Positions 9,932 to 20,344 of a DNA stretch of 64,000 nt are shown one piece after another (the stretch's first letter is position 1; each line of letters starts with the position of its first letter). Source of the DNA: Qipengyuania intermedia (lineage in GTDB: Bacteria > Pseudomonadota > Alphaproteobacteria > Sphingomonadales > Sphingomonadaceae); the NCBI RefSeq assembly GCF_019711615.1, contig NZ_JAIGNS010000001.1, positions 744,001-808,000 on the forward strand, written 5' to 3'. The translations under genes and the position numbers were made by a program. Below the pieces are notes generated by a model that did no database searches, was not told the DNA's origin, and saw nothing but the letters and a program-made list of their open reading frames with translations.

Positions 9932-12607
<2,676 letters not shown>

Positions 12608-12617
12608 GCCGGCTTTC

Positions 12618-12658
12618 GCAGGGGCACGGATAGGAGACTGCTCGCTCCGTGCCCCTGC
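12618..12658 (+). promoter_or_regulatory. Perfect 13-bp hairpin enclosing the start of the 2OG oxygenase gene
   Basis: The arms GCAGGGGCACGGA (12618-12630) and TCCGTGCCCCTGC (12646-12658) are exact reverse complements separated by 15 bases. The loop contains the AGGAGA ribosome site, and the GTG start codon (12649-12651) lies inside the right arm. There is no T-run after it, so it is not a standard terminator. The layout suggests start-codon sequestration or a 3' stabiliser of the acnA transcript; both are inference. Confidence 0.6.
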
Positions 12659-13365
12659 TGACCCCCCTCTTCCGGCTCTTCCGGACCAAGCAACCGGACC
12701 CCAAGGCCGATCCCGCGACCCTTGCAGCGATCGGCGAAAATGTCCGCGCGCGCCTGTCGCTCGATCCCCGGGCAGTCGCGAAGGGCGGCGACAAGGCGGA
12801 TCTCTTTCTGGTCCCGGGTTTCCTGACCGCGCAGGAATGCGCACGGCTGATCGCGACCATCGAAAGCCGCATCCAGCCATCGAAGCTCTTCTCCGATCGC
12901 AAGACCATGGGCGCACGGACGAGCTCGACCCATTTCTTTTCCAATGAAGCGCCAGAGACCATCGAGCTCGGGCGCAAGATCGACGAGGTGCTCGGCATAG
13001 ATCGCGCCCATGCGGAGACGATCCAGGGCCAGCGCTATCATGTGGGCGAGCAGTATTTGCATCACCGCGACTATTTCCGCGAAGAACGGCCGCACTGGCA
13101 GGACGAACGGCGCCGCGGCGGGCAGCGCAGCTGGACCGCGATGGTCTATCTCAACCGCGTCGAAGCGGGCGGGGAGACCGAATTCCCCGAACTGGACCTG
13201 CTGGTCACACCGGAACCGGGTCTATTGATTGCGTGGGACAATATGACCCGCAAGGGTCGCCCCAATCGCAATACGCGGCATGCCGCCCTGCCGGTCGAGG
13301 CAGGTGAGAAATACGTGATTACCCAGTGGTACCGGCAGGAAGAGTGGAGCCGCAGCTACCGCTGA
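12649..13365 (+). CDS. 2OG-Fe(II) oxygenase, prolyl 4-hydroxylase-type
   Basis: The 238-residue protein has the C-terminal double-stranded beta-helix of Fe(II)/2-oxoglutarate dioxygenases. The iron triad is His139-x-Asp141 (YLHHRDYF) and His211 (NTRHAALPV), and the 2-oxoglutarate-binding basic residue is expected in EKYVITQWYR. The region LFLVPGFLTAQECARLI matches the start of the prolyl 4-hydroxylase alpha-subunit-like domain. There is no signal peptide, so it is probably cytosolic; the hydroxylated substrate is unknown. The only plausible start is GTG 12649, with TAGGAGA 10 bases upstream, inside a perfect hairpin. It lies 41 bases after acnA and is convergent with the surface-protein gene. 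Confidence 0.9.
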   Translation: MPLLTPLFRLFRTKQPDPKADPATLAAIGENVRARLSLDPRAVAKGGDKADLFLVPGFLTAQECARLIATIESRIQPSKLFSDRKTMGARTSSTHFFSNEAPETIELGRKIDEVLGIDRAHAETIQGQRYHVGEQYLHHRDYFREERPHWQDERRRGGQRSWTAMVYLNRVEAGGETEFPELDLLVTPEPGLLIAWDNMTRKGRPNRNTRHAALPVEAGEKYVITQWYRQEEWSRSYR

Positions 13366-13397
13366 AGGCAGGGCCGCCCCTGATTTCGCGACTTTCG

Positions 13398-14468
13398 CTA
13401 GACCTTGGCGCCCTTCGCGCCTTTCCGCTCTCGTAATCGCCGGCGGCCGAAGATGGCCGCAGCCCCCAGACCGAACAGCACCATCATCGGCGGAGCCGGA
13501 ACTTCCGTGCCGCTGCTCGTGCTCGACGGAGGCGGGGGAGGAGGTGGCGGAGGTGGCGGCGGAGGAGGAGGCGGCGGCGGGGGCGGAGGAGGCCCACCGG
13601 TCGTCGTGCCGCCCGAGGAACCAGTCGACGTCGAAGTACTCGAACTCGACGAGGTGCTCGAACTGGAGGACGAGCTCGTGCTCGAACTCAGATCGCCACT
13701 CGTCGAGCTGGACGTGGAACTCGACACATCGCCCGAAGTCGAACTGGACGTGGACGTCGAGCTCGAAACGTCGCCGGACGTCGAACTGGATGTCGAGGTC
13801 GAACTGGAGACATCGCCCGAGGTAGAGCTGGAACTGGACGTCGAGGTCGAGCTCGAAACGTCGCCCGATGTCGAACTGGAGGTCGATACATCGCCGGTCG
13901 AAGTGACCGAACCGGTCGAACTGCTCGTCGAACTTCCGCCCGTGCTGGTGCTGGACGTCGTCGTGATGTTGATGGGCGGCAGGTCGCCGCCGGTCGTCGT
14001 GGTCGAATTGACGATCACGGTTCCACCGCTCGACCCGCCACCGAAGAAGCCGCCGAAAAAGCCGCCACCGAAGCCGCCGCCATATCCCCCGCCGTAACCG
14101 CCGCTCGGGATCGAACGCGATCCGCCGCCTGCAACTGGCGCAGCTTGCGGCAAGGGAGGAACGGGAACCGGAGCCATGACCACGCGCCGGACAGGCGGGC
14201 ACACATTCTCGGGATCGGCAACCGCCGCTTCGGGCGAATCAAAGGGGACACATTCGATCACGCGCTGCGGGATGACGCGCGCGGCACGGACCGGCGGCTT
14301 TGGCGTAGCCCGCTTGATCGGCATGGCCTTGATCTGCTTGACCGCCTTGCTCTTGTAGCTGGGAGAATCGGTAATCGGCCGCTCGGCGACATGGACTGCG
14401 CCGCCCGCAACCAGGGCACCGCCCGCGGCGGTGGCCGACAGTTTCGCAAGCGCTCCTTTAACCGACAT
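13398..14468 (-). CDS. Pro/Ser/Thr-rich surface protein with PEP-CTERM-like C-terminus
   Basis: A 356-residue low-complexity protein. After an Ala/Gly-rich hydrophobic N-terminus comes a basic segment, then a Gly/Phe-rich tract (residues about 120-145). A Ser/Thr tract built from imperfect SSSTSGDVSSSTST units follows, then 22 consecutive prolines. The C-terminus is VPAPPMMVLFGLGAAAIFG followed by RRR and a short basic tail. That short Pro motif, single hydrophobic helix and Arg cluster resemble a PEP-CTERM sorting tail, although the motif reads PAPP, not PEP. The tail predicts cell-envelope retention or surface display; function is unknown. The gene is isolated, convergent with the oxygenase gene and downstream of ruvB on the same strand. 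Confidence 0.75.
   Translation of the reverse strand: MSVKGALAKLSATAAGGALVAGGAVHVAERPITDSPSYKSKAVKQIKAMPIKRATPKPPVRAARVIPQRVIECVPFDSPEAAVADPENVCPPVRRVVMAPVPVPPLPQAAPVAGGGSRSIPSGGYGGGYGGGFGGGFFGGFFGGGSSGGTVIVNSTTTTGGDLPPINITTTSSTSTGGSSTSSSTGSVTSTGDVSTSSSTSGDVSSSTSTSSSSSTSGDVSSSTSTSSSTSGDVSSSTSTSSSTSGDVSSSTSSSTSGDLSSSTSSSSSSSTSSSSSTSTSTGSSGGTTTGGPPPPPPPPPPPPPPPPPPPPPPSSTSSGTEVPAPPMMVLFGLGAAAIFGRRRLRERKGAKGAKV
13527..13592 (-). repeat. Codon run encoding 22 consecutive prolines
   Basis: On the plus strand this is an unbroken purine-rich run of GGN-type triplets; on the coding strand it reads as 22 CCN codons. It separates the Ser/Thr repeat tract from the C-terminal anchor-like helix. Such runs are prone to slippage and also demand EF-P during translation (general knowledge). 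Confidence 0.85.
13610..13935 (-). repeat. Imperfect tandem repeats encoding the Ser/Thr/Gly/Asp tract
   Basis: The DNA is a chain of related short units (for example GTCGAACTGGACGT and CTCGAAACGTCGCC variants on the plus strand) that encode repeated SGDVSSSTSTSS-type peptides. Units vary in length and order, as expected from slippage or unequal recombination. The tract is internal to the surface-protein gene. Confidence 0.7.
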
Positions 14469-20301: not shown

Positions 20302-20344
20302 AAGGTCCGGGGCATTTGCCTCCCCCCCCCGCCCCGGACCTTTT
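20302..20344 (+). terminator. Strong hairpin with C9 loop between ahpC and ahpF
   Basis: The arms AAGGTCCGGGGC (20302-20313) and GCCCCGGACCTT (20331-20342) are perfectly complementary over 12 bp, and a T-run completes the right side. The 17-base loop contains nine consecutive C residues (20322-20330). It fits an intrinsic terminator or attenuator that would lower ahpF expression relative to ahpC. Confidence 0.75.

Follow-up and report, generated by a model that had tools for sequence, protein, structure and literature searches.

In phage T4, the genes e, soc, 49 and I-TevI carry the start codon and/or the Shine-Dalgarno (SD) sequence in an mRNA helix on longer read-through transcripts, where binding of 30S subunits is reduced and release is predicted for transcripts without the 5' strand of the helix (PMC3014915, excerpts). 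For gene e two late promoters give a shorter mRNA, and the long transcripts are silent while the short ones are translated, again according to excerpts of PMC3014915. In galE-galT of E. coli, when the next gene fails to start, Rho terminates transcription and the mRNA is trimmed back to a hairpin, leaving a stable upstream mRNA; this hairpin lies inside galT, the mRNA ends about 130 nt past the galE stop and the start is unburied (PMC9239205, excerpts). A structure over the second start is also described for unfolding-coupled pairs such as phage f1 VII/IX, rpmI-rplT and the ATP synthase pair of Rex et al., in which the ribosome on the upstream gene disrupts the stem or masks it (PMC12548453, excerpts). 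Finally, the acnB apo-aconitase site of E. coli is a stem-loop that follows directly on an aconitase reading frame (PMC4150767, in part).

The junction between acnA and an oxygenase gene in the 64-kb window (the whole stretch of Qipengyuania DNA that we analysed) can be compared with each of them. Like the T4 genes it has its start in a helix on what would be a longer read-through transcript, release is predicted for mRNA without the 5' strand of the stem, and the logic of gene e is the one that we propose below, but no promoter like the two late ones was seen here and, instead of phage timing, a chromosomal metabolic gene pair is concerned. With the unfolding-coupled pairs, among them the ATP synthase pair (reportedly atpHA), it shares the structure over the second start but not its position, as the stem here lies 10 nt beyond the stop. 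In contrast to galE-galT, one hairpin would serve both functions, start control and mRNA 3' end. The site resembles that of acnB in following an aconitase gene directly; here, however, the aconitase is of the AcnA type, the start of another gene lies inside the stem and binding is hypothetical. Literature searches, including those for Qipengyuania with aconitase, returned no account of an acnA-oxygenase hairpin and no direct match for the IS10 fold-back, which is a further precedent. The locus looks like a new instance of start-hiding, a known kind of control, and not like a new type of mechanism.

The upstream gene acnA (9932..12607, plus strand) encodes an aconitate hydratase (TIGR01341 with 1355 bits at a cut-off of 945; PF00330 and PF00694) and ends with a TAA at 12605-12607; its reading frame is open from 9815 and the start at 9932 was assigned by our purpose-written gene finder. 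After a gap of 41 nt follows the gene for a 2-oxoglutarate/Fe(II) oxygenase of the prolyl-4-hydroxylase type with 238 aa (12649..13365, plus strand; PF13640 with 54.3 bits at a cut-off of 27), for which an NCBIfam search gave no match and whose PDB relatives 5iax, 3itq and 5hv0 (E 1.7e-25) carry annotations as prolyl 4-hydroxylases or procollagen-proline dioxygenase. Among named loci, those of Q. nanhaisediminis and Q. aquimaris come closest, with 93% and 91% protein identity, respectively. From a TAG at 12631 to the conserved region of the protein, the GTG start at 12649..12651 is the sole in-frame ATG, GTG or TTG; in the alignment, many relatives start with GTG or ATG at the equivalent residue. 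On the minus strand, the convergent gene at 13398-14468 encodes a product rich in Ser/Thr/Gly/Pro repeats with a C-terminus that is first hydrophobic and then basic; it has no Pfam match and a weak NCBIfam match far below the cut-off.

Direct reading of the plus strand confirmed the exact 13-bp inverted repeat described in the first-pass annotation. The left arm GCAGGGGCACGGA (12618..12630) starts 10 nt past the acnA stop and is followed by the 15-nt loop TAGGAGACTGCTCGC (12631..12645), which contains the SD-like AGGAG at 12632-12636, 12 nt ahead of the GTG, and by the right arm TCCGTGCCCCTGC (12646..12658), which holds the GTG and the codons after it. An intrinsic terminator was rejected, as the sequence 3' of the hairpin (TGACCCCCCT) lacks a U-tract and no terminator-like site was found in 12300-13500. 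The observation is right and the hairpin is non-random. Among perfect stems with loops of up to 20 nt, it is the longest one in the window; first-order Markov versions of the window (40 copies) yielded a mean of 0.175 for 12-bp stems and not a single one of 13 bp. When the 70 nt upstream were dinucleotide-shuffled 20,000 times, a stem of at least 11 bp over the start arose four times and one of at least 12 bp never, in agreement with the low chance of an unselected origin that had been assumed at first.

The RNA hairpin has a predicted energy of -30.9 kcal/mol. Opening the start region of the oxygenase is calculated to cost 22.3 kcal/mol, which ranks 8th among 424 starts from 464 kb of the own genome (mean 10.1, median 9.5 and 95th percentile 17.3 kcal/mol), and the start codon is predicted to be paired with a probability of 1.00. 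With the start codon in the stem and the SD in the loop, the model thus predicts the stable start pairing of a start-occluding intercistronic hairpin, and it should prevent initiation at the GTG, so that the block proposed in the first-pass annotation is backed by computation. The SD itself is good by our own scoring, a grade that it shares with 130 of the 376 starts sampled from 400 kb. For an mRNA without the left arm, beginning at +18, the opening cost drops to 7–8 kcal/mol (8.4, 8.1, 6.9 and 7.1 kcal/mol in the four genomes carrying the element) and thus below the background median. We lean slightly towards the view that the hairpin is a translational insulator within the acnA-oxygenase mRNA, its most likely role in the light of these models being to hold the oxygenase start shut on mRNA reading through from acnA.

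Such a stem might also be closed by default and opened by the ribosomes completing acnA, making oxygenase synthesis follow acnA translation, as was suggested at first. Structure over the second start of several coupled pairs (PMC12548453, excerpts) and the short distance between both genes would fit this. The whole stem, however, is located beyond the acnA stop, and opening still costs 22.2 kcal/mol when the mRNA is covered to +10, the start becoming open only with cover to about +18. From footprint distances, a ribosome with the acnA stop in its A site presumably reaches about 12617, adjoining the stem. Because the stem begins only after 10 nt and the cost persists with cover to +10, opening by acnA ribosomes is unsupported. 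Moreover, structure just past a stop goes with less coupling according to the review, in which the shift of a stop codon upstream of the hairpin in phage f1 is also described to abolish coupling (PMC12548453, excerpts). We therefore regard a coupling switch of this kind as improbable.

A sensor, in which temperature, a metabolite or a protein like apo-aconitase opens or clamps the hairpin, appears quite improbable to us. Temperature, one of the triggers initially considered, is unsupported because the GTG stays paired in the model with a probability above 0.99 from 10 up to 75 °C; an RNA thermometer was rejected, as the predicted stem is too stable and does not melt in the physiological range. 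Opening via a known ligand RNA did not find support either, because no Rfam 15 family matches the window at the gathering score, which also led us to discard a known riboswitch or RNA family. The loop UAGGAGACUGCUCGC lacks CAGUGN, the loop motif of iron-responsive elements, although bacterial aconitase sites may not need it, and the presence of the element in only 4 of 60 genomes of the genus counts against a sensor as well. On the other side, apo-AcnB of E. coli binds a stem-loop directly behind the acnB reading frame (PMC4150767, in part), and the oxygenase belongs to a family using Fe(II) and 2-oxoglutarate. The position of the hairpin, the link of both products to iron and 2-oxoglutarate and the acnB precedent suggest by analogy, as a long shot, an aconitase operator: under iron scarcity apo-AcnA would bind the stem-loop, stabilise the acnA mRNA and clamp the oxygenase start shut. 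If this were true, the iron state of a TCA enzyme would directly gate an iron-dependent hydroxylase encoded on the same mRNA.

The 41-nt element is present in four of the 60 genus genomes, the own genome (G000), G030, G028 and G032, with the stem at an identical position from +10 to +50 past the acnA stop. In a family-wide search with the junction DNA across 397 genomes, G000, G028 and G032 alone span the hairpin among the matches listed, the remaining ones listed covering the conserved acnA 3' end; G030 is absent from these matches and seemingly was not in the drawn set. Among the four genomes only one of 26 arm sites is variable (left arm 1/13, right arm 0/13), compared with 89 of 234 third codon positions in the oxygenase gene, 194 of 566 in acnA and three of the ten bases ahead of the stem. 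With one variable site in 15, the loop is about as invariant as the arms, so that part of this invariance could be due to constraint on the ribosome site alone. The sole change in the stem is an A to G facing the U of the GUG start in G028 and G032, which converts an A-U into a G-U pair and thereby preserves the RNA pair while the DNA palindrome is lost.

In the alignment of these four sequences, three of which are distinct, 12 of 13 pairs are invariant and one shows the change from A-U to G-U. For the covariation check proposed at first this amounts to one half-compensatory change, because the exact arms are confined to four close species out of 60 searched. No two-sided compensatory change occurs across the four genomes, for which reason covariation is not proven, and in a shuffle control on the four-sequence alignment the pairing is not distinguishable from shared ancestry. 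The same A-to-G change bears on the idea that the repeat acts as DNA, either as a repressor operator or as a copy of a dispersed palindromic repeat: although the perfect DNA inverted repeat is found in two of the four element-bearing species, the other two disrupt the palindrome and spare the RNA stem, and a 91-bp query has a single place in the own genome. We consider a DNA element extremely improbable, and a dispersed repeat was discarded at the sensitivity of this search.

The acnA end was searched in the 60 genus genomes, of which 59 matched; downstream DNA was taken for 58 (all but G006 and G077) and the acnA stop was placed in 53 (all of these but G081, G001, G010, G003 and G072). Among the 53 genomes, some show acnA followed by a rhodanese-like gene and then the oxygenase gene, and others have the oxygenase gene directly after acnA; the rhodanese-like identity is based on Pfam PF00581 for G075 and on a purpose-made sequence motif for the other genomes. 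In several genomes without a detected oxygenase motif, acnA is followed by hairpins with T runs behind them. G008 (L073; 11 and 20 bp) and G068 (L074; 10 and 17 bp) have two perfect hairpins in tandem downstream of acnA, the second of them with AAAA and TTTT at its base like a bidirectional terminator.

We could show that closed start regions are associated with the direct arrangement of acnA and the oxygenase gene. The comparison covers 15 direct and 14 rhodanese-type genomes and omits G073 and G004 (direct, with the start unresolved) as well as the genomes in which no oxygenase motif was found. The mean opening cost is 19.3 kcal/mol in the direct genomes, 11 of 15 being above the 95th percentile of the background (17.3 kcal/mol) and four below, whereas the oxygenase starts of the rhodanese-type genomes have a mean of 12.5 kcal/mol and none of the 14 exceeds this percentile (Mann-Whitney p 1.6e-4, a statistic that ignores relatedness). 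Measured against shuffled upstream sequence, the mean z is 1.88 for the direct and 0.25 for the rhodanese-type genomes (p 0.0018), with G028 and G032 being only modestly above the shuffles (z of 1.7 and 1.2). The best oxygenase tree requires six changes between both arrangements, two of them forced by well-supported branches, and a test of independent pairs on this tree has no power, as only two pairs are usable. Direct genomes other than those of the four-genome clade mostly have a start codon that is itself predicted to be unpaired, and the structures vary by group; therefore, it is closure of the start region that recurs and not the 13-bp hairpin. Judged by the refuting condition of the first-pass annotation, a lack of conserved arms, the arms do not occur widely (4 of 60 genomes), but the closed start region is found again among the relatives. 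Within one genus, an intervening gene with an open start on the one hand and a direct neighbour with a closed start on the other represent a natural experiment on the resetting of start accessibility upon a change of gene order.

These data also allow weighing whether the repeat arose by chance and has no selective value. Its restriction to one clade (4/60), the few substitutions among four close species and the absence of two-sided covariation would agree with chance, but 12 bp were reached in none of the 20,000 shuffles, the stem was retained with one pair-keeping change and comparable closure of the start region is present in 11 of the 15 direct genomes, which makes a chance origin very improbable.

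A role of the hairpin chiefly as the 3' end of the acnA mRNA, where it would stop 3'-to-5' exonucleases once Rho termination or an endonuclease has produced that end, is possible but rather unlikely in our opinion, and the same holds for the overlap with the oxygenase start being a side effect of the tight gap, which is part of this explanation. It is favoured by the beginning of the hairpin only 10 nt past the acnA stop and by G061 and G083, in which no oxygenase motif was found and hairpins with a T run follow acnA at a comparable distance (+23 to +48 and +22 to +49, respectively). Additionally, 11 of the 14 rhodanese-type genomes have a 7–8-bp stem at +25 to +49 past the acnA stop, which is GGCGGCG/CGCCGCC (7 bp; e.g. 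L039, L047, L058) in ten of them and an 8-bp stem in G013. However, these stems are short and sit inside the beginning of the rhodanese-like gene, where they may have no role of their own; they fit a 3'-end role and plain coding constraint equally well. The galE 3' hairpin of E. coli is a precedent, and a puf intercistronic stem-loop is named in the reference list of the same source (PMC9239205, excerpts). A protector alone, on the other hand, need not bury a start codon. Protection of the 3' end and blocking of the start can both hold, because a failed start of the next gene can trigger Rho termination and trimming, as in galE-galT.

For the translational insulator that we prefer, the following course is conceivable. 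On transcripts that continue past acnA into the oxygenase gene, the GTG would be held in the 13-bp stem, where 30S subunits would be unable to initiate. A ribosome finishing acnA would halt short of the stem and leave it closed, and with the GTG held and the stem unopened the acnA message would therefore yield very little oxygenase. Being free of ribosomes past the acnA stop, this message may be shortened by Rho and then trimmed back to the hairpin, resulting in a stable acnA mRNA. Good translation of the oxygenase would be expected only from mRNA without the left arm, derived from a start site of its own or from processing within about 12618-12631, because the SD would then be exposed. Transcriptional read-through, repression in the cell, the Rho and trimming step and the shorter mRNA are inferred. 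As no sigma-70-like promoter was found in 12300-13500 by a scan that covers the sigma-70 type only, the short oxygenase mRNA is a prediction. Synonymous conservation at the acnA 3' end was considered as a sign of a promoter and dropped, because codon sameness in the last 15-codon windows (0.84–0.85) is no higher than in other conserved parts (0.83–0.86). If the insulator model is true, a gene can ride on a housekeeping transcript without being made, with a translational insulator taking the place of a terminator.

Stems of at least 8 bp with the right arm over a start were also surveyed in 864 kb of the own genome, using starts from the purpose-written gene finder. From 784 starts 668 fall into three classes, the remainder being co-directional with gaps above 120 nt. 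In the class of co-directional genes with a gap of 15–120 nt such a stem was detected at 8 of 212 starts compared to 0.8 in shuffles, the acnA-oxygenase hairpin itself being one of the eight, and the excess was also seen for stems of at least 9 bp (6 vs 0.3) and at least 11 bp (3 vs 0.0). Co-directional starts with a gap below 15 nt (1/209 vs 0.9) and starts without a co-directional upstream gene (0/247 vs 1.3) gave the other two values. The excess comes from one 400-kb sample and the window, while a second 400-kb sample showed 1 of 93 starts against 0.6; the corresponding numbers are 2/108 against 0.5 for G016 and 1/67 against 0.0 for E. coli K-12. The excess in short co-directional gaps in one part of the genome hints at a repeated use of start-burying hairpins.

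A second start-burying hairpin is located at G000:C1:598714-598752 (L202:18714-18752), after a Peptidase_S9 gene and before a gene for 173 aa without a Pfam match, and consists of a stem of 12 bp, whose right arm has the ATG at its end, and a loop with GGAG at its edge. It is kept in the four genomes that carry the acnA-oxygenase hairpin, and 14 of the 16 orthologs of the 173-aa gene among the 60 genomes have a hairpin at the corresponding place. In nine of these 14 it is followed by a T run containing a TTG start and appears terminator-like, whereas this T run is absent in the four-genome clade and in G075. At C1:354105-354131 (L190:14105-14131), a 10-bp perfect stem between co-directional genes nearly abuts an ATG; a hairpin against the ATG of this start (C1:354133) was found in six of eight relatives examined, with an altered sequence in those less closely related; in G036 and G082 it is weaker or absent. 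The region C1:549534-549567 (L200:9534-9567) shows a perfect stem of 11 bp whose right arm includes the ATG. For this start (C1:549559) six of the eight genomes searched were aligned, G020 and G033 being left out; the stem is full in G030 and G032, has one mismatch in G028 and was not seen in G082, G036 and G083. Within the window, a 12-bp perfect stem with a C-rich 17-nt loop is present at 20302-20342 between two co-directional genes, its right arm ending in TT followed by TTCC.
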